Source: Vreelandella piezotolerans (GTDB taxonomy: Bacteria > Pseudomonadota > Gammaproteobacteria > Pseudomonadales > Halomonadaceae). From it: 64,000 nucleotides of DNA. The notes beneath the pieces are model-generated. The model made no database searches. It was not told the DNA's origin and saw nothing but the letters and a program-made list of their open reading frames with translations. The stretch covers positions 2,356,001 through 2,420,000 of the forward strand of contig NZ_CP048602.1 of the NCBI RefSeq assembly GCF_012427705.1, in the 5' to 3' direction. Position numbers and translations under genes: made by a program. Of the stretch, positions 34,435 through 46,255 are shown one piece after another. How positions within the stretch are numbered: position 1 is the first letter of the stretch; the number at the start of each line of letters is the position of its first letter.

Positions 34435-34610
34435 CACCGTCAAGAGGCATGAAACAAACGAGCCGCGCCGCCTTTTTTGGCAACGAAAGCGCTTTAACAC
34501 CATGAAATATAAAGAGTTAACGATGATCGGCAGCGATCTTGCTCAGTTTCTAAGCGTAACAAGCGGGGTATCGGCGGCTAGCGCTGCCCAACAATAGAGT
34601 TTCCAATAGA
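34435..34610 (+). other. Non-coding region between epmB terminator and the riboswitch
   Basis: The roughly 175 bases before the riboswitch aptamer must carry the promoter of the guanidine operon. A 10-bp palindrome AAAGCGCTTT lies at 34486-34495 and could bind a regulator. I see no convincing -35/-10 pair. A 60-codon frame at 34415-34597 shows no family resemblance and is not called as a gene. Confidence 0.4.
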
Positions 34611-34726
34611 TCGCTAGGGTTCCGACGCCATCAATGATAGGCCCCTGATGGACGTGGCTGGTCCGAGAGCAATCGACCTAATGCCTTGACGTTAGGTTAC
34701 ACGGCGGGACAAAAGCCCGGGAGGAT
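34611..34726 (+). ncRNA. Guanidine-I riboswitch (ykkC RNA) aptamer
   Basis: The conserved blocks of the class are present in order: CTAGGGTTCCG (34614-34624), CTGGTCCGAGAG (34658-34669) and ACACGGCGGGACAAAAGCCC (34699-34718) followed by GGGAGG. The RNA binds free guanidinium and turns on downstream genes. It heads a transporter-carboxylase-hydrolase operon, the best-known context of this class. Its 3' strand is shared with the terminator at 34718-34763, giving a clear transcription-control switch. Boundaries are approximate. Confidence 0.95.
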
Positions 34727-34763
34727 AAGGTGCAGTGATGCGCCGATGCCCCCGAGTTTTTTT
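34718..34763 (+). terminator. Riboswitch expression platform: intrinsic terminator
   Basis: CGGGAGG (34718-34724, with a bulged A) pairs with CCCCCG (34749-34754); an inner stem GGTGCA/TGCGCC (34729-34734 with 34739-34744) closes on a GTGA loop; seven T residues follow (34757-34763). The outer strand uses bases that close the aptamer's last helix, so ligand-bound aptamer and terminator exclude each other and guanidine should permit read-through. Confidence 0.9.
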
Positions 34764-34783
34764 CCTAGACCCTGGAGGCTGAC

Positions 34784-35860
34784 ATGACCCGTGCCATCCG
34801 TATCTCCCCCCAATGTTTCTCGCTCGCTCCCCTCTCTGCCGCACTGCTAGCGTCGACCCTAGCGATCACCCCTGCCCAGGCCCAAGAACGCGACGATTTC
34901 AGCGTCTGCTGGTCGATTTACGCGGGCTGGATGCCCTGGGCCTACGCCGATGTCGAAGGCATCGTCGATAAGTGGGCCGACGAGTACGGCATCAGCATCG
35001 ACGTGGTGCAGGTCAACGACTACGTCGAGTCCATCAACCAGTTCACCTCCGGCAACGTCGACGGCTGCGCCATGACCAACATGGATGCCCTGACGATTCC
35101 TGCCGCCAGCGGCGTCGACTCTACCGCATTGATCATCAACGACTACTCCAACGGTAACGACGGCATCGTGCTCAAAGGCAGCGACGATCTTGCCGACATT
35201 GCAGGCCGTCGCGTTAATCTCGTTCAGTTTAGTGTCTCCCACTACTTCCTGGCACGCGCCCTCGAGAGCGTTGGCTTGACCGAACGTGACATCGAAACCG
35301 TCAACACCTCCGATGCAGACATCGTCGGTCTCTTCTCCAGCGACACCACCGAAGCAGTGGTCGCCTGGAACCCCCAGCTAGGCGCCATCACGGACATGCC
35401 CGACAGCAACGTGGTGTATACCTCTGCGGAGATCCCCGGCGAAATTCTCGACATGATGGTGGTCAATACCCAAACCCTGGCGGACAACCCTGCGCTCGGC
35501 CACGCCTTGGTCGGCGCTTGGTATGAAGTCATGGATCTGGTCGCCGCCGACGACGAGCAGGCGCTGACGATCATGGCCGATGCTGCGGGCACCGACCTGG
35601 AGGGCTACAAGCGTCAGTTGGACGCCACCTATCTCTATACCGACCCAGCAGAAGCCATCGCCTTGATGGAGAGCCCCGAGTTGCTCGACACCATGGGGCG
35701 GGTCGCCGAGTTCAGCTTCCAGCACGGACTGCTGGGCGACATGGCGCCTAATGCCGAAGTCGTCGGTATCGAAACGCCCAGCGGCGTGTTCGGCGACGAG
35801 AGCAACGTGCAGCTGCGTTTCGACCCTAGCTTTACCCAAGCGTACCTCGACGCCCAGTAA
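34784..35860 (+). CDS. Guanidine-operon ABC transporter substrate-binding protein
   Basis: 358-residue periplasmic binding protein of the NitT/TauT type. A signal peptide ends at AQA (about residue 34). The mature start SVCWSIYAGWMPWAYAD and QFTSGNVDGCAMTNMDAL match binding proteins found beside urea-carboxylase-like genes. GGAGG lies six bases before the ATG. Position directly after the guanidine-I riboswitch implies guanidine, or a guanidine-bearing compound, as ligand; older annotation would say urea. First gene of the operon; 20 bases separate it from the permease start. Confidence 0.9.
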   Translation: MTRAIRISPQCFSLAPLSAALLASTLAITPAQAQERDDFSVCWSIYAGWMPWAYADVEGIVDKWADEYGISIDVVQVNDYVESINQFTSGNVDGCAMTNMDALTIPAASGVDSTALIINDYSNGNDGIVLKGSDDLADIAGRRVNLVQFSVSHYFLARALESVGLTERDIETVNTSDADIVGLFSSDTTEAVVAWNPQLGAITDMPDSNVVYTSAEIPGEILDMMVVNTQTLADNPALGHALVGAWYEVMDLVAADDEQALTIMADAAGTDLEGYKRQLDATYLYTDPAEAIALMESPELLDTMGRVAEFSFQHGLLGDMAPNAEVVGIETPSGVFGDESNVQLRFDPSFTQAYLDAQ

Positions 35861-35880: not shown

Positions 35881-36750
35881 ATGGGCCGCTCCCTCTGCTT
35901 CTCCTCTCGATGGACACTCGCCATGAAGCGACTCATTAATCTAGCCCCTTCGCGGGGGAGCCGATGGCTGCTCGGACTGCTGCCCTTCGTCGTGTTGGCC
36001 ATGCTCTACCTGAGCCTCTCCAATGCCCGGCTGGCCGAGAACCCCAACGACCGGCTGCTGCCGACACCGGCTACCATGGCAGGCTCGTTTTACCATTTGG
36101 CCACCGCCGAGAACGTGCGGACGGGGCAAATCGTGCTCTGGACCGATACCTTCGCCAGCCTAGAGCGCATTCTCATTGGCGTGGCGATCAGCGCCTTCAT
36201 CGGTCTGGTCGTGGGCATTTTGAACGGCGGTCTTCCCCTCATCCGCGCCAAGCTCTCACCGCTGGTCACCGTGGCGTCGCTCATTCCGCCCATGGCGATA
36301 CTGCCCATCCTGTTCATCGCCTTTGGCACCGGCGAGGCCGCCAAGATCGCGCTGATCGTCATCGGAGTCACGCCGTTTCTGATTCGCGACCTCCAGGGCC
36401 ACGCCTTGCGGCTGCCCGACGAGCAGTTGATCAAAGCGCAAACCCTGGGGGCCAGCTCCTGGCAGGTGCTGCTCCGGGTGCTGCTGCCCCAGCTTACCCC
36501 ACGCCTGCTCAATGCCACGCGCTTGGCGCTGGGCAGCGCCTGGCTGTTTTTGATCGCCGCCGAGGCGATTGCCGCCCAAGAGGGGCTTGGCTATCGCATC
36601 TTCCTGGTGCGTCGCTACCTGTCGATGGACGTCATTCTGCCCTACGTGGCGTGGATCACGCTGCTGGCGTTTCTGCTCGACCAACTGCTCGCCTGGACGT
36701 CGCGCCTCGCCTTTCCCTGGTACCACGCTGGCGAAGGAGACAAGTCATGA
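35881..36750 (+). CDS. Guanidine-operon ABC transporter permease
   Basis: Inner-membrane permease of about 289 residues of the NitT/TauT (BPD_transp_1) family, with about six membrane helices and the EAA-loop region QTLGASSWQVLLRVLLPQL. ATG at 35881 has GGGAG five bases upstream; an ATG four codons earlier (35869) and one at 35923 (MKRLINLAP) are alternatives. The stop overlaps the ATPase start as ATGA. Works with the flanking binding protein and ATPase. Confidence 0.9.
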   Translation: MGRSLCFSSRWTLAMKRLINLAPSRGSRWLLGLLPFVVLAMLYLSLSNARLAENPNDRLLPTPATMAGSFYHLATAENVRTGQIVLWTDTFASLERILIGVAISAFIGLVVGILNGGLPLIRAKLSPLVTVASLIPPMAILPILFIAFGTGEAAKIALIVIGVTPFLIRDLQGHALRLPDEQLIKAQTLGASSWQVLLRVLLPQLTPRLLNATRLALGSAWLFLIAAEAIAAQEGLGYRIFLVRRYLSMDVILPYVAWITLLAFLLDQLLAWTSRLAFPWYHAGEGDKS

Positions 36751-37553
36751 GCCTGCTGTCCGCCAAACGCTTGGAAAAGCACTACGGCCACCACATCGTG
36801 CTGGAGAATCTGAACTTCAGCGTCGAGCAAGGGGAGTTCGTCACGCTGGTGGGCGCCTCGGGCTGCGGTAAAACGACGTTTTTGAAAATGTTGCTGGGCA
36901 CCCAAGCCATTTCCAAAGGCACCCTGCTGCTGGATGGCCAGCCCATTCCCAACGAGCCCGGCCCCGACCGCGGCGTGGTCTTTCAAAAGTATTCGGTCTT
37001 CCCCCATCTGACGGTGCTGGGCAACGTGATGATGGCCGATGAGCTGCACAGCGCCAAACTGCTCGGCAAGACCTTTGGCGCTACCCGGCGTCGCGCCATC
37101 GAGAACGCCAACGCGCGCATCGACGAAGTGGGCCTGGGCCATGCGCTGCACAAGTACCCCCATGAGCTTTCCGGCGGCATGCAGCAACGCCTCGCCATCG
37201 CCCAAGCGCTGATGATGCGCCCGCGCATCCTGCTGCTGGACGAACCCTTTGGCGCCCTCGACCCAGGGATTCGTCAGGACATGCACGCCTTGATCACGCG
37301 CCTTTGGCAGGAGCAGCAGCTCACCATCTTCATGATTACCCACGACCTAAAAGAGGCCTTCGCGCTGGGCACGCGGCTCTGGGTGTTCGATAAAACCCGC
37401 CACGACCCGCAAGCCCCCAACGCCTATGGCGCCACCATTACCTACGACCTGCCCCTGGGCCAGCACACCGACGAAGCGCTGAGTGCCCAAGCGTTCAGCC
37501 AGCAGCTTGCCGAACGGGGCGTCGCGACACATACCCAGGAAACGCTGCTGTAA
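36747..37553 (+). CDS. Guanidine-operon ABC transporter ATP-binding protein
   Basis: 268-residue ATPase with Walker A GASGCGKTT, the signature LSGGMQQRLAIAQAL and Walker B ILLLDEPFGALD, then the switch His in ITHDLKEAF. Starts at the ATGA overlap with the permease stop (36747). Contains about 30 extra C-terminal residues compared with minimal NitT/TauT ATPases. A TAAGGAG overlapping its stop serves the next gene. Confidence 0.95.
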   Translation: MSLLSAKRLEKHYGHHIVLENLNFSVEQGEFVTLVGASGCGKTTFLKMLLGTQAISKGTLLLDGQPIPNEPGPDRGVVFQKYSVFPHLTVLGNVMMADELHSAKLLGKTFGATRRRAIENANARIDEVGLGHALHKYPHELSGGMQQRLAIAQALMMRPRILLLDEPFGALDPGIRQDMHALITRLWQEQQLTIFMITHDLKEAFALGTRLWVFDKTRHDPQAPNAYGATITYDLPLGQHTDEALSAQAFSQQLAERGVATHTQETLL

Positions 37554-37565
37554 GGAGACGTTTTG

Positions 37566-38288
37566 ATGACCCACGATGCACACTACACCACCCACCTGCC
37601 CGGCGGGCACCACTGGTCGCTGCGCCTGCGCCGTGGCACGACGCTGACGCTGACCGCCAAACAGGCCGATAGCAACGTCGGGCTTTTGTGCTACAACCCC
37701 GAAAACCTGCTGGAACGCTTGAACCTGCCGGACACCTTGAAGGCCCAGCACACCTTCAAGCTCACCCAGGGTCACTGCCTCTACTCGGACATGGGGCGCA
37801 TCTTCGCCTCGATCACCCACGATGACCTTGGCTGGCACGACAGCGTGGGCGGCAACCTGATGCCCCACCATCTGCTGGCCAAAGGCTGGCAACCGGTGAG
37901 CTATCAGCAGGCGCACAACGACTGGACGCGCACCGGCTTCGACGCCTTCCTGGTCGAACTGGCCAAGTATGGCCTAGGGCGCCGCGACATGGCGGCCAAC
38001 CTCAACCTGTTCTCCCGGGTCGAGAGCGATGACGCAGGCAAGCTGAGCTACGTCAGCGACCACTGCCAGCCAGGCAACCGCGTCACGCTGCGCTTCGAGA
38101 TGGATACCCTGGTGCTGCTGCACACCTGCCCCCACCCGCTGGATCCCGCCGCCGACTATCCACGGCGCGGCGTCGATATCGCGCTGGGCATCGCCGAGGC
38201 GCCCAACGAAGACGACCCCTGCTACCGCTCGCGGCCCGAAAACGCCCGCGGATTTGCCAACAACCGCCTTTACCACCTCGGCCTGTAA
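37566..38288 (+). CDS. Carboxyguanidine deiminase subunit (DUF1989, urea-carboxylase-associated protein 1)
   Basis: 240-residue DUF1989 protein. Family marks include [48 protein letters not shown] and CPHPLDP. Proteins of this family encoded in pairs beside guanidine carboxylase have been shown to be carboxyguanidine deiminase (CgdAB), turning carboxyguanidine into allophanate. This is the longer subunit, encoded first. ATG at 37566 or the adjoining TTG at 37563 may be used; TAAGGAG is 8 or 5 bases upstream. Partner lies 11 bases downstream. Confidence 0.9.
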
Positions 38289-38299
38289 GGGAGAACCGC

Positions 38300-38938
38300 A
38301 TGATCATCGAAAGCACCCTACGCCCCGAAAATGCCGTCAGCCGAACCACGGTGAACGCGGGCGACCACTACATCGGCGTCGTCAAGCGTGGCCAAACCCT
38401 GCGCATTCTCGACTTAGAGGGCAACCAGGCCGCCGACACCCTGTTCTTCAGCGCCGCTGACACCGCCGAGCACTACAGCGCCATGGATACCGTTCGCGAA
38501 CAGGGAGCCGTCTACCTGACCGCGGGCTCCAAGCTGATCTCCAGCGAAGGCCGCACGATGCTGACGCTCACCGCCGACACCTGCGGCCGCCACGACACCT
38601 TGGGCGGTGCCTGCGCCAGCGAAAGCAACACCGTGCGTTACGACCTGGAGAAGCGCCATATGCACTCCTGCCGTGACAACTGGATGCAGGCCATTGTCAA
38701 CCATCCAGAGTACGGCCTGACCAAGCGCGACATCACCCACAACATCAACTTCTTCATGAACGTGCCGGTCACCGCCGACGGCGGGCTGACCTTCGAGGAT
38801 GGCATCTCCGCGCCGGGCAAATACGTGGAGATGGTCGCCGAGATGGACGTGATCGTGCTGGTCTCCAACTGCCCCCAGCTCAACAACCCCTGTAACGGCT
38901 ACGACCCCACGCCCATCGAGCTGTTGGTTTGGGAATGA
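38300..38938 (+). CDS. Carboxyguanidine deiminase subunit (DUF1989, urea-carboxylase-associated protein 2)
   Basis: 212-residue DUF1989 protein, paralogous to the gene before it and expected to form a heteromeric deiminase with it. Visible marks are [39 protein letters not shown], and the C-terminal [17 protein letters not shown]. Together with the carboxylase it replaces the guanidine nitrogen by oxygen, releasing ammonia and giving allophanate. GGGAG precedes the ATG. After its stop lies the 75-base gap with two ACGA hairpins. Confidence 0.9.
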
Positions 38939-38948
38939 CCCGTTCGCC

Positions 38949-39007
38949 CTAGGGACGACCCTAGAAGGCAAAGCAACCTGCGGGACGACCCGCCTTTGTT
39001 TGCAGGC
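38949..39007 (+). ncRNA. Guanidine-II riboswitch (mini-ykkC), internal to the operon
   Basis: Two consecutive hairpins with identical loops: CTAGGG-ACGA-CCCTAG (38949-38964) and GCGGG-ACGA-CCCGC (38980-38993), joined by a 15-base linker. Paired hairpins with ACGR loops are the defining feature of the guanidine-II class, which binds two guanidinium ions at the loops. Beyond the second hairpin, CCTGC (38977-38981) can pair with GCAGG (39002-39006), the likely Shine-Dalgarno of the carboxylase gene, and this would break the second hairpin. Guanidine would therefore expose the ribosome site. Placement inside a guanidine-I-controlled operon is unusual. Confidence 0.88.
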
Positions 39008-39013
39008 AGAGCC

Positions 39014-42000
39014 ATGTCCACCCAGAAAACGTTTAGCAAAGTCCTGATTGCCAACCGCGGCGCCATTGCCGCGCGAATCTTACGCACGCTCAATGCGCTA
39101 GGCGTGGGCAGTGTCGTGGTGTATGCCGATGCCGACCGCGATGCCCCCTACGTGCATCGAGCCGATGAGGCGTATGCCCTTGGCGAGGGCGGCGCCAGCG
39201 ACACCTATCTCGACATCGACAAGCTGATTGCCATCGCCCAGCAGAGTGGCGCCCAGGCGATCCACCCCGGCTACGGATTTCTCTCGGAGAATACCCGCTT
39301 CATCACCGCCTGCGATGCCGCTGGGCTGACGTTTCTCGGCCCCACCGCCGAACAGATACGCCAGTTCGGCCTCAAGCACGAAGCCCGCGCGCTCGCCGAA
39401 CGGGCGGGCGTACCGCTGGTACCCGGCTCGGCGCTGCTCGACAGCCTCGACGACGCCAGGCAGGCCGCCGAGCGGATCGGCTATCCGGTGATGCTCAAAT
39501 CCACGGCGGGCGGCGGCGGCATCGGCATGCAGGTGTGCCGCACCCCGGCAGAACTCGAGCGCGCCTTCGAATCGGTGAAAGGCCTGGGCGAGCGCAATTT
39601 CGGCGATGGCGGCGTCTTTCTGGAAGCCTATATCGCCCGCGCCCGCCACCTGGAAGTGCAGCTATTTGGCGACGGCCAGGGCAGCGTCATCGCCCTCGGT
39701 GAGCGCGACTGTTCCACCCAGCGCCGCCACCAAAAAGTGCTGGAGGAGTGCCCGGCGCCGAACCTCCCCGACGCCGTTCGCCAAGCGCTGCACGCCACGG
39801 CGGTGCAGCTAGGCAAAGCGGTCAACTACCGCAGCGCGGGCACCGTCGAGTTCATCTACGATGCCGAGCGCGAAGCCTTCTACTTCCTGGAGGTCAATAC
39901 CCGCCTTCAAGTGGAGCACGGCGTTACAGAGCTGGTCTACGGCGTGGACATCGTCGAGTGGATGATCCGACTCGGCGCCGGTGCGCTGCCCGACCTGGAA
40001 GGCCTGGCCCAAGGCCTCGCCCCCCACGGCCACGCCGTGCAGGCGCGCCTCTACGCCGAAGACCCCGCCCACGACTTTCGCCCCAGCGCCGGTCTGCTGA
40101 CGGACGTTCGCTTTCCCGAGGCCAGCGGCCTGCGCATCGACCACGCCATCGAGGCGGGCCTGGAGGTCTCACCGCTGTTCGACCCCATGCTGGCCAAGGT
40201 GATGGTGCATGCCGCCAGCCGCGGGCAGGCCACCGCCGAGCTGGCAGATGCCCTGGACAGCGCCAGCGTCTACGGCATTACCACCAACTGCCGCTGGCTG
40301 GCTCACGTGCTGCGCGCCGAGCGCTTTCAGCAGGCGGATATCGACACCCACTGGCTCACGACACTGGATTGGGCACCGCCCGCCATCGAAGTGCTCACAC
40401 CAGGCACGCTGACCACGATTCAAGACTTCCCCGGCCGCCAGGGCCACTGGGACGTGGGCGTGCCGCCTTCCGGCCCGTTCGACGACTGGTCGTTTCGGCT
40501 GGGCAACCGCCTGCTCGACAACCCACCAGAGGCCGCGGGCCTGGAGATCACTCTCCAAGGCCCCACGCTGCGCTTTCATCGGGCCACCCAGATCGTGCTC
40601 GCCGGGGCTGAACTCTCCGCCTCGCTGGAGGGTCGCGCCATCGACCGCTGGGCCGTCATCGACGTGCCCGCCGGTGCCACGCTGACGCTGGGCAAGGCCA
40701 CCGCAGGCGCCCGCGCCTATCTGCTGGTGCGTCACGGTATCGAGTGCCCGCGCTACCTGGGCTCTCGCAGTACCTTTACGCTCGGCCAATTTGGCGGCCA
40801 CGGGGGCCGCGCCCTGCGCAGCGGCGACATGCTCACCCTGCCTGCGCTGACCCCGGCTCCCCAGCGCACCCTCGATAGCGCGCTGGTGCCCGCCATCGGT
40901 CGCGCAGCGTCCGACGTCACGGAGATTGCCGTACTGTATGGCCCCCACGGCGCGCCGGATTTTTTTACCGACGCCGATATCGACCGCTTTTTCGACCACG
41001 AGTGGGCGGTGCACTACAACTCCAGCCGCACCGGCGTGCGCCTGATCGGCCCGCGGCCGGAGTGGGCTCGGGCAGACGGCGGCGAGGCAGGGCTACACCC
41101 CTCGAACATCCACGATAACGCCTACGCCTTTGGCACCATCGACTTTACCGGCGACATGCCGGTCATTCTGGGCCCGGACGGCCCGTCATTGGGGGGGTTC
41201 GTCTGCCCCGCCACCGTGGTGCGCGCCGAACGCTGGAAGCTTGGCCAGCTCACCGCCGGTGACAAAGTACGCTTCTTTCCGGTCACCTTGGCCACCGCCC
41301 GGGCGCTGGAGGAGCGCCAGCTCGCCCAATTGGCGTCGCTGACACCAGCACCCGACGTGACGCTCGACTGGGAGCAGAGCACCCCGGTGCTGCGCGACGT
41401 TCCTGCCGAAGAGGCGGGTGAGCGCATCGTTTACCGCCGGGCTGGGGACGACTTCCTACTGATCGAATTCGGCGCCATGGAGTTGGACATCGCCCTACGC
41501 TTTCGCGTCCACGCCTGGATGCTGTGGCTGCAAGAACACTCCATTGCGGGCCTGCGAGAGCTCACCCCCGGCATCCGCTCGCTGCAGGTGCATTTCGAAC
41601 CGCGGGAGCTGACCCTTGACGCGCTGCTTGACCACCTGCGCGAAGCCGAACAGGCGCTGGTGGACGTCGAGTCGCTGGAAGTGGCGTCTCGGGTCGTGCA
41701 CCTGCCCCTCTCTTGGGACGATCCCGCCTGCCAGGAAGCCATCGACAAGTATCAGCGCAGCGTACGTCCCGACGCCCCCTGGTGCCCCAGCAACCTGGAT
41801 TTCATACGCCGAATCAACGCCCTCGAGAGCGAACGGCAAGTGCGCGACATCGTCTTCAACGCCCGCTACTTGGTGATGGGGCTGGGCGATGTCTACCTAG
41901 GAGCGCCGGTCGCCACTCCCCTCGATCCGCGCCAACGCCTGGTCACCACCAAATACAACCCGGCGCGTACCTGGACGGCGGAAAACTCGGTGGGGATTGG

Positions 42001-42640
42001 CGGCGCGTATCTCTGCGTGTATGGCATGGAGGGCCCCGGCGGCTACCAGTTCGTGGGCCGCACGCTGCAGATGTGGAACCGCTACCGCACGACTCGGCAC
42101 TTCGACAACCCGTGGCTGCTGCGCTTTTTCGATCAGCTGCGCTTTTATGAAGTGAGTCACGACGAGCTGCAGCACATCCGCCGCGACTTCCCCCACGGGC
42201 GCTTCGATCTCTCCATCGAGACGACCCGTTTCACACTGGCCGACTACCAAGCCGAGATCGAGGCTAACGCCGAGGCCATCGAGGCGTTTCGCACCCGGCG
42301 TGAGCAGGCCTTTCAAGCGGAAATGGCCGCTTGGCGTGCCAATGGCCAGTTCACCTTCGAAGATCAAGCCCCGGCAAGCGCCGACGTCGACGCGCTCGAC
42401 GAAGACGAGTTGGGGATCGAAAGCCCAGTCACCGGCAGCCTATGGAAACTGCTGGTCAAGGAGGGCGAGCAGGTCAGCGCGGGTCAACCCGTGGCGCTGG
42501 TGGAGTCGATGAAAATGGAGGTCGAGGTCACCGCCCACTGCGCCGGACGGGTCGTCCGGCTGCCGCTCGCCGAAGGCGCGGCCCTCGGCCCCGGCCAGCC
42601 GCTGGTGGTACTTATCCAGGAAGAGGAGGCCAACGCATGA
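39014..42640 (+). CDS. Biotin-dependent guanidine carboxylase (urea carboxylase family)
   Basis: 1208-residue enzyme. Order of domains: biotin carboxylase (about 1-450; ATP loop KSTAGGGGIGMQV, then CSTQRRHQK and EVNTRLQVEHGVTE), KipA/KipI-like carboxyltransferase halves (about 460-1110; starts at GTLTTIQDFPGRQGHWDVG), and a biotinyl domain with Lys1167 in VESMKMEVEV. The allophanate hydrolase is a separate gene. Two riboswitches for guanidine and the adjoining deiminase pair argue for guanidine rather than urea as substrate. ATG at 39014 follows GCAGGCAGA; an upstream in-frame TTG (38996) lies inside the riboswitch and is rejected. Stop overlaps the next start as ATGA. Confidence 0.93.
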   Translation: MSTQKTFSKVLIANRGAIAARILRTLNALGVGSVVVYADADRDAPYVHRADEAYALGEGGASDTYLDIDKLIAIAQQSGAQAIHPGYGFLSENTRFITACDAAGLTFLGPTAEQIRQFGLKHEARALAERAGVPLVPGSALLDSLDDARQAAERIGYPVMLKSTAGGGGIGMQVCRTPAELERAFESVKGLGERNFGDGGVFLEAYIARARHLEVQLFGDGQGSVIALGERDCSTQRRHQKVLEECPAPNLPDAVRQALHATAVQLGKAVNYRSAGTVEFIYDAEREAFYFLEVNTRLQVEHGVTELVYGVDIVEWMIRLGAGALPDLEGLAQGLAPHGHAVQARLYAEDPAHDFRPSAGLLTDVRFPEASGLRIDHAIEAGLEVSPLFDPMLAKVMVHAASRGQATAELADALDSASVYGITTNCRWLAHVLRAERFQQADIDTHWLTTLDWAPPAIEVLTPGTLTTIQDFPGRQGHWDVGVPPSGPFDDWSFRLGNRLLDNPPEAAGLEITLQGPTLRFHRATQIVLAGAELSASLEGRAIDRWAVIDVPAGATLTLGKATAGARAYLLVRHGIECPRYLGSRSTFTLGQFGGHGGRALRSGDMLTLPALTPAPQRTLDSALVPAIGRAASDVTEIAVLYGPHGAPDFFTDADIDRFFDHEWAVHYNSSRTGVRLIGPRPEWARADGGEAGLHPSNIHDNAYAFGTIDFTGDMPVILGPDGPSLGGFVCPATVVRAERWKLGQLTAGDKVRFFPVTLATARALEERQLAQLASLTPAPDVTLDWEQSTPVLRDVPAEEAGERIVYRRAGDDFLLIEFGAMELDIALRFRVHAWMLWLQEHSIAGLRELTPGIRSLQVHFEPRELTLDALLDHLREAEQALVDVESLEVASRVVHLPLSWDDPACQEAIDKYQRSVRPDAPWCPSNLDFIRRINALESERQVRDIVFNARYLVMGLGDVYLGAPVATPLDPRQRLVTTKYNPARTWTAENSVGIGGAYLCVYGMEGPGGYQFVGRTLQMWNRYRTTRHFDNPWLLRFFDQLRFYEVSHDELQHIRRDFPHGRFDLSIETTRFTLADYQAEIEANAEAIEAFRTRREQAFQAEMAAWRANGQFTFEDQAPASADVDALDEDELGIESPVTGSLWKLLVKEGEQVSAGQPVALVESMKMEVEVTAHCAGRVVRLPLAEGAALGPGQPLVVLIQEEEANA

Positions 42641-43716
42641 GCACACCCACTGGCAACCAGCGCTTGGCGGGCTTTCAGGCGATTCCTGTCATCGACATTC
42701 ACCCCCTGCTACATGGGGACGATCAGGCAAAGCGTGAGGTGGCCGCAGAACTGGGGCGCGCCGCCCGTGACGTGGGTTTCTTCCAAATGGTGGGCCACGG
42801 CATCGATGACTCGCTGCGCGACGGGCTGATTCACCAGGCCAAACGCTTCTTTGCCCAGCCCGAAGCGACCAAAATGGAGCGCTACATCGGCCTCTATCAC
42901 CACCATCGCGGCTATGTGCCGCCCGGCGAAGAGTCGCCAGACCCGGCCAAGCCCGATATGAAAGAGGCCTTCGACCTCGCGTTCGAGCTACCCAGCGATG
43001 ACCCTGCAGTGCTAGCCGGAACGCCGCTGCTCGGTCCCAATCCCTGGCCCGACCTAGAGGGCTTCAAGGAACCCGTAGCCACTTACTATGACGCGGCCTA
43101 CCACGTCGGGCGCGCACTAATGGGCGGCTTTGCCATGGCATTGGGGCTTGCGCCCGAGCAGCTGCTGCAGTTCGTCAACAAGCCGCCCAGCCAGCTACGC
43201 CTGATCCACTACCCCTACAACCCCGATGCCGAGGACGCACAAGGCATCGGCGCCCACACGGACTACGAATGCTTTACCCTGCTGCTGCCCACCGCCCCCG
43301 GGCTCGAGGTGATGAATGGCAACGGCGAGTGGATCGACGTGCCGTTCAAGGAGGGCGCCTTGGTCGTCAACATTGGCGATATGCTGGAGATCTGGAGCAA
43401 CGGCGAATTCGTCGCCACCTCTCACCGGGTACGCAAAGTGAAGGAGGAGCGCTACTCGTTTCCGCTGTTTTTCGCCTGCGATTACCCCACCAGGGTCGCC
43501 CCGCTCCCCGAACTCGTCGCTCGCCATGGGCAGGCCCACTACGGCGCTCTGACCGCAGGCGACCACCTCTATGCCCAAACCATCCAAACCTTTCGCTACC
43601 TACGCGAGCGCTTGGCAGCGGGCGAGATTACGCTCCCAGAGGACGCCAGAGAAGTTGGTACCCTGGGCCAGCACGGCAAGCAAAAAGCGCCGGGCAGCAC
43701 GGGAGCGACGTCATGA
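42637..43716 (+). CDS. 2-oxoglutarate/Fe(II)-dependent oxygenase (isopenicillin N synthase family)
   Basis: 359-residue double-stranded beta-helix oxygenase. An N-terminal DIOX_N region (about 15-130, IPVIDIHPLL and DVGFFQMVGHGI) precedes the catalytic core. Iron ligands are His207 and Asp209 (AHTDYE) and His263 (TSHRV); Arg272-x-Ser274 should bind 2-oxoglutarate, so the active site is complete. The ATG overlaps the carboxylase stop and its own stop overlaps the next start, giving full translational coupling. The family includes ethylene-forming enzyme and plant homoarginine 6-hydroxylases that release guanidine; a like role here is inference. Substrate unknown. Confidence 0.88.
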   Translation: MSTPTGNQRLAGFQAIPVIDIHPLLHGDDQAKREVAAELGRAARDVGFFQMVGHGIDDSLRDGLIHQAKRFFAQPEATKMERYIGLYHHHRGYVPPGEESPDPAKPDMKEAFDLAFELPSDDPAVLAGTPLLGPNPWPDLEGFKEPVATYYDAAYHVGRALMGGFAMALGLAPEQLLQFVNKPPSQLRLIHYPYNPDAEDAQGIGAHTDYECFTLLLPTAPGLEVMNGNGEWIDVPFKEGALVVNIGDMLEIWSNGEFVATSHRVRKVKEERYSFPLFFACDYPTRVAPLPELVARHGQAHYGALTAGDHLYAQTIQTFRYLRERLAAGEITLPEDAREVGTLGQHGKQKAPGSTGATS

Positions 43717-44438
43717 CGATGCCACTTCCCAGCGTGCATCCAGCGTACCAAGGGGCGTGGCAGCGCACGCTCTATGCCGAGCCCCACACACCGCCGTACC
43801 GGGCAACCGATACCACCACCCGGGTGGTGTGGCTACAGGGCCAGCAGTGGCATGCCGACTTGCGCATCCCCCTCGAATCACCTGACTTCAGCCACGTTCA
43901 AAGCCTCGCAGCGTGCAACCGAGCGCAGCTCGAGTGGTTGGCCAGCCTGACGGCCTTTGCAGGGCTGACCCAAATAGATGGCGGTGTATGCACCTGGCAT
44001 CGCCTGCAGGATCTCTGCCCTAGCCTGGAGAAAGACGTGGGCCTGCTGCGCTGGCAGGCGGATACGCTGGAAGAGCGGCACCCGGTCGGACACTACGTCG
44101 AGCATTGGCAGCGGCTCACGGCACCCAGCGCGGCGGAGACGGTACGCGTCGATGGGCAGGGCCGGCTGCGCTGGCTGGCGCTCGGCGATCACGCCATGGC
44201 CATCACCCCCCGCCCACCCATCGCCGATCAATCCGACCCCTTCGCGCTACCCCGCCACGCCAGCCTCGACGATCTGCGCCGGCGAGCCAGCCTGTGCATC
44301 GACTACTGCCAACGCGGCCCAAACGGGTGGCACATCGAGCTCTCCACACAGCCCTGGAGGCAGGATCATGTCTTGAACGACGCCACCTGCTCTTCAACCA
44401 ATGCTATGACGCCCGCCTTCCCAAGGAGCCCATCATGA
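43713..44438 (+). CDS. Unrecognised 241-residue protein of the guanidine operon
   Basis: No family recognised. The ATG overlaps the oxygenase stop, its stop overlaps the allophanate hydrolase start, and GGGAG lies eight bases upstream, so it is a real coupled gene. There is no signal peptide or membrane segment. Conserved-looking elements are DTTT (33-36), VVWLQ (38-42), ADLRIP (48-53), FAGLTQ (82-87), TWHR (94-97), DVG (108-110) and HYVEHW (127-132). Beta-strand-rich with many Trp residues, suggesting a beta-barrel binding protein. A weak internal echo, RLRWLAL after a 100-residue spacing, hints at two similar halves. The last 20 residues are low complexity and may only exist to bridge to atzF. 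Confidence 0.75.
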   Translation: MTMPLPSVHPAYQGAWQRTLYAEPHTPPYRATDTTTRVVWLQGQQWHADLRIPLESPDFSHVQSLAACNRAQLEWLASLTAFAGLTQIDGGVCTWHRLQDLCPSLEKDVGLLRWQADTLEERHPVGHYVEHWQRLTAPSAAETVRVDGQGRLRWLALGDHAMAITPRPPIADQSDPFALPRHASLDDLRRRASLCIDYCQRGPNGWHIELSTQPWRQDHVLNDATCSSTNAMTPAFPRSPS

Positions 44439-46255
44439 CACGCTCTATTTCCCTGGATATCGCCAGCCTCCATACCGCCTATCAACAAGGTGCCCTGACC
44501 CCCCCTCAGCTCATCGACGAGCTGCTGGCTCAAGCTGAACGCCACGGCGCCGAGCCGGCTTGGATAACGCGTTTGGATCGCGCGCAGTTGGCCCCTTACC
44601 TGCAGCGTCTGGAGGGTGAGTCGCCGGAGACGCTGCCGCTCTACGGTATTCCCTTTGCCATCAAAGACAACATCGATCTGGCGGGGATGCCGACCACTGC
44701 TGGCAGCCCGGCCTACGCCTATACGCCCCGAGAGAGCGCCTTCGTGGTACAACGGCTGATCGATGCGGGCGCGATACCCATGGGGAAAACCAACCTCGAT
44801 CAGTTTGCCACTGGGCTGGTGGGTGAGCGTGCCCTGGATGTGTACGGCACGCCGGCCAACGCTTTCGACCCAGAGCGGGTGCCGGGGGGCTCCAGTAGCG
44901 GCTCGGCGGTCGTCACAGCCGCAGGCATGGTGAGCTTCGCGCTAGGCACCGATACCGCCGGTTCCGGCCGCGTGCCCGCCTGCTTCCACAATTTATACGG
45001 CGTCAAACCTAGCCTTGGCCTGCTCAGCACCCGCGGCGTCGTGCCCGCCTGCGCCACGCTGGACACCATTAGCCTCTTTACCCTCACCGCCGACGATGCC
45101 GCCAAGGTGCTCGGTGTGACGGCGGTCTATGACGATCAGTGCGCCTGGTCGCGAAAGCATGACTTTGCCGTGTACGGTCAACGCTATGGACAGGCGCCTG
45201 CGACCTTCCGGTTTGGGGTGCCGCTGGCGTCTCAATGGCACACCGATGCGGCCTATACTCAGGGGATGCAACAGGCGATTGCCGAGCTGGAGGCTCTTGG
45301 CGGGGAAAAAGTCGAGCTGGACTGTACGCCGCTACTGGCCGCCGCACGCTTGCTGTACGAAGGGCCCTGGGTGGCCGAGCGCTACCATGTCATCCGCGAG
45401 TTGATGCAGCGTGACCCGCAGGCGGTGCACCCTGTCACCTTCGATATCACGCAAGGCGGCGCGACTCCGCTGGCGGTGGATGCCTTCGATGCACGCTACA
45501 AGCTCGCCGAATTCAAACGCCAGGCCGATGCCCTGATTGGCCAGGTGGACGTGATGCTCTCGCCCACCACGGTGACCCACCCCACCAAGGCAGACGTGGC
45601 CGCCGACCCGATTGGCGTGAACTCGCGCCTGGGCACCTGGACCAACTTCATGAACCTGCTCGACTACAGCGCGCTGGCAGTGCCCATCGGATTTACGGAC
45701 GACAATCTGCCGGTAGGCATCACGCTATTTGGGCCCGTGTTCGATGACTTGTCACTGCTCTCTCTGGGCCGAGCCCTCGAAGCACGCTCGATGCTGCCGT
45801 TAGGCGCCTCGGGTATCGCCCGCTCGGCGTTGGCTGCCCATGCCACCACTGCTCAAGACGGCACGCTAGAGCTGGTGGTATGCGGCGCGCACCTGCAAGG
45901 CCTGCCGCTCAATCACCAGTTGACCGAACGGGGCGGCCAACTGATCAGCACCACCCATAGCGCGCCCCGCTACAAGCTCTTCGCACTAGCGGGTGGGCCG
46001 CCCAAACGCCCGGCCATGCTGCGCGACGAGCATGGCCAAGCCATCGAAGTGGAAGTATGGCGCTTACCCATCGCCACCATTGGCAGCTTGTTAGCCGGTA
46101 TTCCTGCACCGCTCGGCTTGGGCCAAGTGGAGCTTGCCGACGGAAGCTGGAAATGTGGCTTCATCTGCACCGCCGGTGCGCTCAATGAAGGGGGTAAGGC
46201 AGAGGACATCACCGCATTTGGCGGTTGGCGCGGATGGCTAGCGAGTCATTCATAG
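44435..46255 (+). CDS. atzF: Allophanate hydrolase
   Basis: 606-residue amidase-signature enzyme that hydrolyses allophanate to ammonia and CO2, ending the guanidine pathway. The N-terminal amidase domain shows Lys77 (FAIKDNID), GGSSSGS at 151-157 and the nucleophile Ser177 in TAGSG. A C-terminal domain (about 460-606, with GQVELADGSWKCGFICT) is the one that acts on the N-carboxyurea intermediate. CCAAGGAG lies just upstream of the ATG. A terminator follows 12 bases after the stop, closing the operon. Confidence 0.94.
   Translation: MTRSISLDIASLHTAYQQGALTPPQLIDELLAQAERHGAEPAWITRLDRAQLAPYLQRLEGESPETLPLYGIPFAIKDNIDLAGMPTTAGSPAYAYTPRESAFVVQRLIDAGAIPMGKTNLDQFATGLVGERALDVYGTPANAFDPERVPGGSSSGSAVVTAAGMVSFALGTDTAGSGRVPACFHNLYGVKPSLGLLSTRGVVPACATLDTISLFTLTADDAAKVLGVTAVYDDQCAWSRKHDFAVYGQRYGQAPATFRFGVPLASQWHTDAAYTQGMQQAIAELEALGGEKVELDCTPLLAAARLLYEGPWVAERYHVIRELMQRDPQAVHPVTFDITQGGATPLAVDAFDARYKLAEFKRQADALIGQVDVMLSPTTVTHPTKADVAADPIGVNSRLGTWTNFMNLLDYSALAVPIGFTDDNLPVGITLFGPVFDDLSLLSLGRALEARSMLPLGASGIARSALAAHATTAQDGTLELVVCGAHLQGLPLNHQLTERGGQLISTTHSAPRYKLFALAGGPPKRPAMLRDEHGQAIEVEVWRLPIATIGSLLAGIPAPLGLGQVELADGSWKCGFICTAGALNEGGKAEDITAFGGWRGWLASHS

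Follow-up and report, generated by a model that had tools for sequence, protein, structure and literature searches.

The window analysed here, a stretch of 64,000 nucleotides of the Vreelandella piezotolerans genome, carries a predicted guanidine carboxylase operon with two riboswitches. Five same-strand genes, three coding for ABC transporter components and two for DUF1989 proteins, lie between a guanidine-I (Gd-I) aptamer and a guanidine-II (Gd-II) riboswitch, and the genes gca, mgdH, mgdL, and atzF follow Gd-II in this order. The features of the operon are:

34603..34725, + strand: guanidine-I riboswitch aptamer (ykkC) at the head of the operon (Rfam RF00442)
34715..34763 (approximate ends), + strand: likely intrinsic terminator, a hairpin that takes in the 3' end of Gd-I and is followed by seven T
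34784..35860, + strand: sbp, ABC transporter substrate-binding protein (NCBIfam TIGR03427, above its cut-off)
35923..36750, + strand: perm, ABC transporter permease (start codon uncertain, 35869 or 35923)
36747..37553, + strand: atp, ABC transporter ATP-binding protein (ATGA overlap with the permease gene)
37566..38288, + strand: cgdA, carboxyguanidine deiminase/hydrolase subunit (TIGR03425, DUF1989)
38300..38938, + strand: cgdB, second subunit of the carboxyguanidine deiminase/hydrolase (TIGR03424, DUF1989)
38947..38993, + strand: guanidine-II riboswitch (mini-ykkC; Rfam RF01068; P1 covariation in relatives)
38949..38964, + strand: P1 hairpin of Gd-II, CTAGGG-ACGA-CCCTAG, from the sequence
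38965..38979, + strand: linker of Gd-II, between P1 and P2
38980..38993, + strand: P2 hairpin of Gd-II, GCGGG-ACGA-CCCGC, from the sequence
39002..39006, + strand: GCAGG, likely gca ribosome binding site, 7 bases before the ATG at 39014
39014..42640, + strand: gca, predicted guanidine carboxylase (gene order as in Vreelandella boliviensis; 84% identity to its gca)
42637..43716, + strand: mgdH, 2-oxoglutarate/Fe(II) dioxygenase (PF14226, PF03171; 83% identity to the V. boliviensis gene)
43713..44438, + strand: mgdL, N-(hydroxymethyl)guanidine lyase homologue (60% over 230 amino acids to the V. boliviensis gene)
44435..46255, + strand: atzF, allophanate hydrolase (TIGR02713, 729.8 bits; PF01425, PF21986)

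The names cgdA and cgdB follow the available sections of the V. boliviensis report (PMC12508155). The model matched by the protein at 34784-35860 is named for urea, and the substrate here is presumably guanidine. The best NCBIfam model for gca was urea carboxylase TIGR02712 (1786 bits); judged by the gene context and the 84% identity to V. boliviensis gca, the product is probably a guanidine carboxylase. No Pfam family was matched by mgdL, and the start codon of atzF was set by comparison with the loci of relatives. A consensus scan of 38500-39200 found no promoter-like site in that stretch, which agrees with a single transcript.

The Gd-I aptamer scored 82.8 bits against a gathering score of 63 (RF00442, 34603-34725, + strand) and was the only match to this family in the whole genome (3,945,801 bases), which bears out the original prediction that the transcript starts with such an aptamer. 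The fold of 34690-34790 reached -41.8 kcal/mol (z -3.8), and the Gd-I aptamer's 3' end lies in a hairpin there. In this model, the hairpin at 34715-34763 is likely an intrinsic terminator that would be excluded once the aptamer forms; a simple terminator scan reported nothing at this place. The hairpin sequence is conserved in relatives by eye. Among the 46 loci of the family that carry both riboswitches (hereafter dual loci), a run of at least five T follows the hairpin in 15, the window among them, and the run is four T in many congeners and missing in some other genera. Since the longer run is found in only 15 of 46 loci, Gd-I may act other than by an intrinsic terminator in some of them.

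The element before gca belongs to the guanidine-II class. It scored 43.4 bits, above the gathering score of 32 (RF01068, 38947-38993, + strand), with an E value of 2.5e-5 when the 64 kb window was searched against all 4227 Rfam families, and it is the single RF01068 match in the 3,945,801-base genome. Both loops read ACGA, as expected of the ACGR loops of this class, and a short linker separates the hairpins; the loop-to-loop spacing of 30 is shared by 18 of 26 distinct dual aptamers. These results confirm the original prediction in its class assignment, in the two hairpins with identical ACGA loops at 38949-38964 and 38980-38993, and in the position of Gd-II before the guanidine carboxylase gene within an operon led by Gd-I, for which the RF00442 and RF01068 matches speak together.

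The search of homologous operons that had been proposed with the prediction found the same pair in nearly all Gd-I genomes of the sampled family. With an E value of 0.001 or better, 47 of 250 family genomes carried Gd-I and 81 carried Gd-II, 76 of the latter above the Gd-II cut-off; the Infernal filters of the family and class searches were stricter, so that weak matches are lost. In 45 of the 47 Gd-I genomes, a same-strand Gd-II followed at a distance of 4196-4705 bases downstream. In G026 (locus L126), which the search missed, a two-hairpin Gd-II can be seen by eye ahead of gca, and G006 (L127) shows only an operon fragment in the fetched stretch. Each of the 46 dual loci, counting L126, carried sbp, perm, atp, cgdA, cgdB, and gca. 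In a separate sequence search for gca, 67 of 77 loci were examined for hairpins and 38 genomes were searched for Gd-II and Gd-I. The family loci examined in this set showed the two-hairpin pattern ahead of gca. The exceptions were L154, which is on the same contig as L090, whose Gd-II carries a P1 mismatch, and L193, where gca was matched in part and a single hairpin could be seen at the edge. Some loci recur between the sets, since the named and class sets share entries with the family set or with one another (L149 is G224; L170/L222; L181/L226).

Unpaired Gd-II sites in the family number 40, of which 33 were fetched (L101-L120, L128-L140), and an SMR exporter gene lies within 500 bases downstream in 32 of these 33. 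The locus L118 gave no SMR match and no loop anchor in the stem comparison. No SMR gene was found within that distance in any of 45 dual loci. Seven single-Gd-II loci also gave weak gca matches (29-33% over 229-323 residues), which were left out of the gca count because the matched part of the query, about 457-779, is the carboxyltransferase domain PF02626, which is shared by 5-oxoprolinase subunits.

The stems of Gd-II were compared across these sets. Pairs 2-5 of P1 show changes on both sides among the 26 distinct dual aptamers, with a standard pair kept in 23-26 of the 26 at each position, and both-side changes in P1 occur in all three groups, i.e., the dual aptamers, the kind before SMR genes, and the kind before more distant gca genes. 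P2 pairs 1-4 are invariant in 26/26 distinct dual aptamers and hence uninformative on covariation there; of the 17 distinct aptamers that precede more distant gca genes, 2 have changes on both sides at pair 3, and 2 at pair 4. The covariation in relatives on which the original prediction had staked both hairpins is thus found for P1, and for P2 at these two pairs farther out.

In the wider taxonomic class, 29 of 369 genomes carried Gd-I, and 27 of the 29 were searched for Gd-II (all but G000 and G010). In 8 of the 27, Gd-II lay 3.3-4.6 kb downstream on the same strand, below the cut-off in one case (G443), and these 8 genomes represent seven families, all other than that of the window. G368, with a same-strand Gd-II 5.1 kb downstream but away from gca, was left out of the count, and in G292, G490, G550, and G275 the two classes lie on different contigs or strands. 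Among 24 named gca loci from outside the family (at least 49% identity), two ACGR hairpins stand directly before gca in 13: eight labelled Salinisphaera, one Endozoicomonas, and one each from Oleiphilaceae, Vibrio, Poseidonibacter, and Sulfurospirillum. An Rfam match was obtained at these hairpins in 12 of the 13, above the cut-off in 10, and the Sulfurospirillum element was recognized by pattern alone. Gd-I also occurs in 11 of the 13 genomes, on another contig in L163. In L176, L189, and L190, there is no Gd-II before gca and almost no gap in that place, and Gd-I is found in the genomes. The pair is therefore recurrent outside the family and not obligatory. As a separate observation, Salinisphaera hydrothermalis (L166) and Salinisphaera sp. 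Q1T1-3 (L168) have Gd-II directly before gca and no Gd-I match in the genome.

The serial arrangement is already known, and ligand binding has been tested in a sister species. The original prediction knew of no description of it; a serial Gd-I/Gd-II guanidine carboxylase operon has been reported in V. boliviensis (PMC12508155, Nat Commun, October 2025), and a comparable one in enterobacteria (PMC12186494), as far as the available parts of the two papers go. In the former, Gd-I is placed in the 5' UTR and Gd-II between cgdB and gca, and mgdH and mgdL sit between gca and atzF. In-line probing gave a KD of 44 uM guanidine for Gd-I, which left methylguanidine unbound within the range tested, and KDs of 93 uM guanidine and 83 uM methylguanidine for Gd-II; the operon proteins increase with guanidine or methylguanidine as the nitrogen source (PMC12508155, available sections). 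The suggestion in the original prediction that the carboxylase would respond at another guanidine range is weakened by guanidine KDs that are about twofold apart. Because of this small difference, and because methylguanidine binding is limited to Gd-II in the range tested, ligand choice is the better replacement for the guanidine-range idea and the clear difference between the two riboswitches in the portion of the V. boliviensis report at hand (PMC12508155).

Our results indicate that Gd-II very probably acts as an ON switch on gca translation inside an operon that is transcriptionally switched on by Gd-I. Support for this comes from the Rfam matches, the family survey, the changes in P1, the binding and proteome data of the sister species, and the ATGA overlaps of gca and mgdH. 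Gd-I would switch on transcription of the whole operon, and Gd-II would then turn on gca translation by opening its ribosome site. According to the available text of PMC9094411, riboswitches of this class are proposed to release the ribosome site once guanidine brings the two loops into a kissing interaction, with the anti-SD sequence in the linker. The original prediction had named a specific helix for this step, in which CCTGC (38977-38981) pairs with GCAGG (39002-39006) and excludes P2. Both sequences do lie at these places, the complement extends to eight pairs including three G-U, and all five pairs are intact in 18 of 23 congeneric loci with the TTTGCAG element, which is present in 23 of the 24 dual loci of the genus (17 distinct sequences in all). 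The other congeneric loci keep four pairs (four loci) or three (one), with zero compensated changes among the 23; two of the five linker-side bases are P2 bases anyway, the ribosome-site side is altered in one locus only (L097), and the helix is absent from other genera. The fold with this helix reached -24.9 (five pairs) or -24.4 (eight pairs) kcal/mol. The P1 and P2 fold reached -30.4 kcal/mol and is more stable than the five-pair fold by 5.5 kcal/mol; folding programs model neither kissing loops nor ligand, so these values leave the helix unsupported and not disproved. Its description as a ready translation switch finds little backing in a pair probability of 0.0003 and a rank of 74 of 200 against shuffles, and we consider it unlikely that this helix gates gca. 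The unconstrained fold of the window already buries the last two G of GCAGG.

An anti-SD search was performed on 45 dual loci (some identical), in which the best pairing of the aptamer with the stretch ahead of the gca start (20 bases at most) was compared, for each locus, with 200 mononucleotide shuffles. L090 alone came within the best 10 of 200 (9), followed by L065 and L077 (17), with the window at 74 and others up to 194. Since only 1 of 45 loci falls in the best 10 of 200, no common switching helix is claimed. In L077 and L090 (genus g19) and in L073 and L078 (genus g4), the sequence of the P1 5' strand recurs in the ribosome-site region, so that 8-9 bases there could pair with the 3' strand of P1, and L073 and L090 differ by one coordinated change; the ranks of 17 and 9 (g19) and of 71 and 67 (g4) of 200 make this a lead only.

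That no switching helix could be supported would suit the view of the internal Gd-II as a functionless relic, which is nevertheless very improbable: all 46 Gd-I operons of the family survey that have every gene of the set also have the riboswitch (in one case by eye), its P1 shows changes on both sides, it stands directly before gca in distant lineages too, and in V. boliviensis it binds ligand in vitro according to the available part of PMC12508155. Gd-II might also act on transcription, with P2 and the following CTTTGTTT forming an intrinsic terminator. The terminator scan marked 38980-38993 with the tail CTTTGTTTGC, among 2 sites in all (one per strand) against 0.4 expected. Ligand binding would then promote termination, contrary to the induction seen in V. 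boliviensis (PMC12508155, available sections), and the T-rich tail is absent in genera g4, g7, g12, and g19 by eye. With the tail missing in four genera and a ligand effect of the opposite sign, this reading was rejected as very unlikely, and translational control of gca by Gd-II remains the preferred explanation.

Gene overlaps of the type ATGA generally couple translation. In the window, such overlaps join gca to mgdH, mgdH to mgdL, and mgdL to atzF, and if translation is coupled along this chain, Gd-II would set the translation of gca-mgdH-mgdL-atzF as one block; the import and deiminase half would answer to Gd-I alone. Gd-II may in this way gate the whole catabolic half of the operon. The chain is not universal among the dual loci. 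The gca/mgdH overlap is ATGA in 18/18 loci in which mgdH adjoins gca, the mgdH/mgdL overlap in 15/18, and the mgdL/atzF overlap in 4 of the 15 loci judged; where mgdH is not beside gca, gca ends in ATGA in 13/28 loci and otherwise in 15/28. Across the 46 dual loci, mgdH lies beside gca in 18 and elsewhere in 4, and it was not found within the fetched stretch in 24, a count in which the stretch of L064 ends early at its contig edge. A general tie of Gd-II to methylguanidine genes was rejected on account of these 24 loci. In L077, L084, L090, and L100, mgdH and mgdL come after atzF and not between gca and atzF.

For operons built like that of the window, a two-key start-up circuit can be imagined, although we regard it as speculative and more doubtful than probable. 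Gd-I, responding to guanidine only, would open transcription, and Gd-II, responding to guanidine or methylguanidine, would open translation of the gca-mgdH-mgdL-atzF block. With methylguanidine only, leaky transcripts would be translated in their second half through Gd-II, and MgdH and MgdL would then release guanidine, which would open Gd-I. If this were true, the substrate of a branch enzyme would prime the operon via an internal sensor. Of the 22 dual loci with mgdH, 18 have it right behind gca, always with an ATGA overlap; the 24 dual loci in which mgdH was not found in the fetched stretch speak against the idea as a general one.

Two unrelated RNA sensors that respond to one compound, in series on one message and presumably each at a step of its own, amount to a natural control circuit of two layers. 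Since the serial arrangement is already in print, the value of our work lies in the survey. Within the sampled family, the Gd-I/Gd-II pair accompanies the guanidine carboxylase operon; it turns up again in distant lineages, and the aptamer is conserved while the flanking sequence varies by genus. In addition, the genes chained by ATGA suggest that the internal sensor controls a gene block.

The closest known system is the operon of V. boliviensis LC1, which has the same gene order and the same Gd-I and Gd-II positions in the accessible account (PMC12508155); this strain is locus L149 of the gca search, which is G224 of our family survey. It is another species, with identities to the window genes of 84% for gca, 83% for mgdH, and 60% for mgdL, and its Gd-II differs from that of the window in 1 of 47 bases. 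In Raoultella, Erwinia, and Klebsiella, the importer and deiminase genes go with Gd-I, and the carboxylase and allophanate hydrolase genes directly downstream with Gd-II, i.e., the same split between the operon halves as in the window, whereas mgdH and mgdL are absent from the account of the operon given in the available portion of that paper (PMC12186494). The single Gd-II elements before SMR (Gdx type) exporter genes belong to the same aptamer class as the Gd-II of the window, but they stand outside Gd-I operons and differ in P2. The gca kind has GCGGG/CCCGC almost throughout, with pair 4 C-G in 26/26 dual and 15/17 more distant aptamers, whereas in the SMR kind 20 of the 30 distinct aptamers have G-C at pair 4 and 8 have C-G. 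The distinct P2 stems may represent two long-separated lineages of one riboswitch within one bacterial family.
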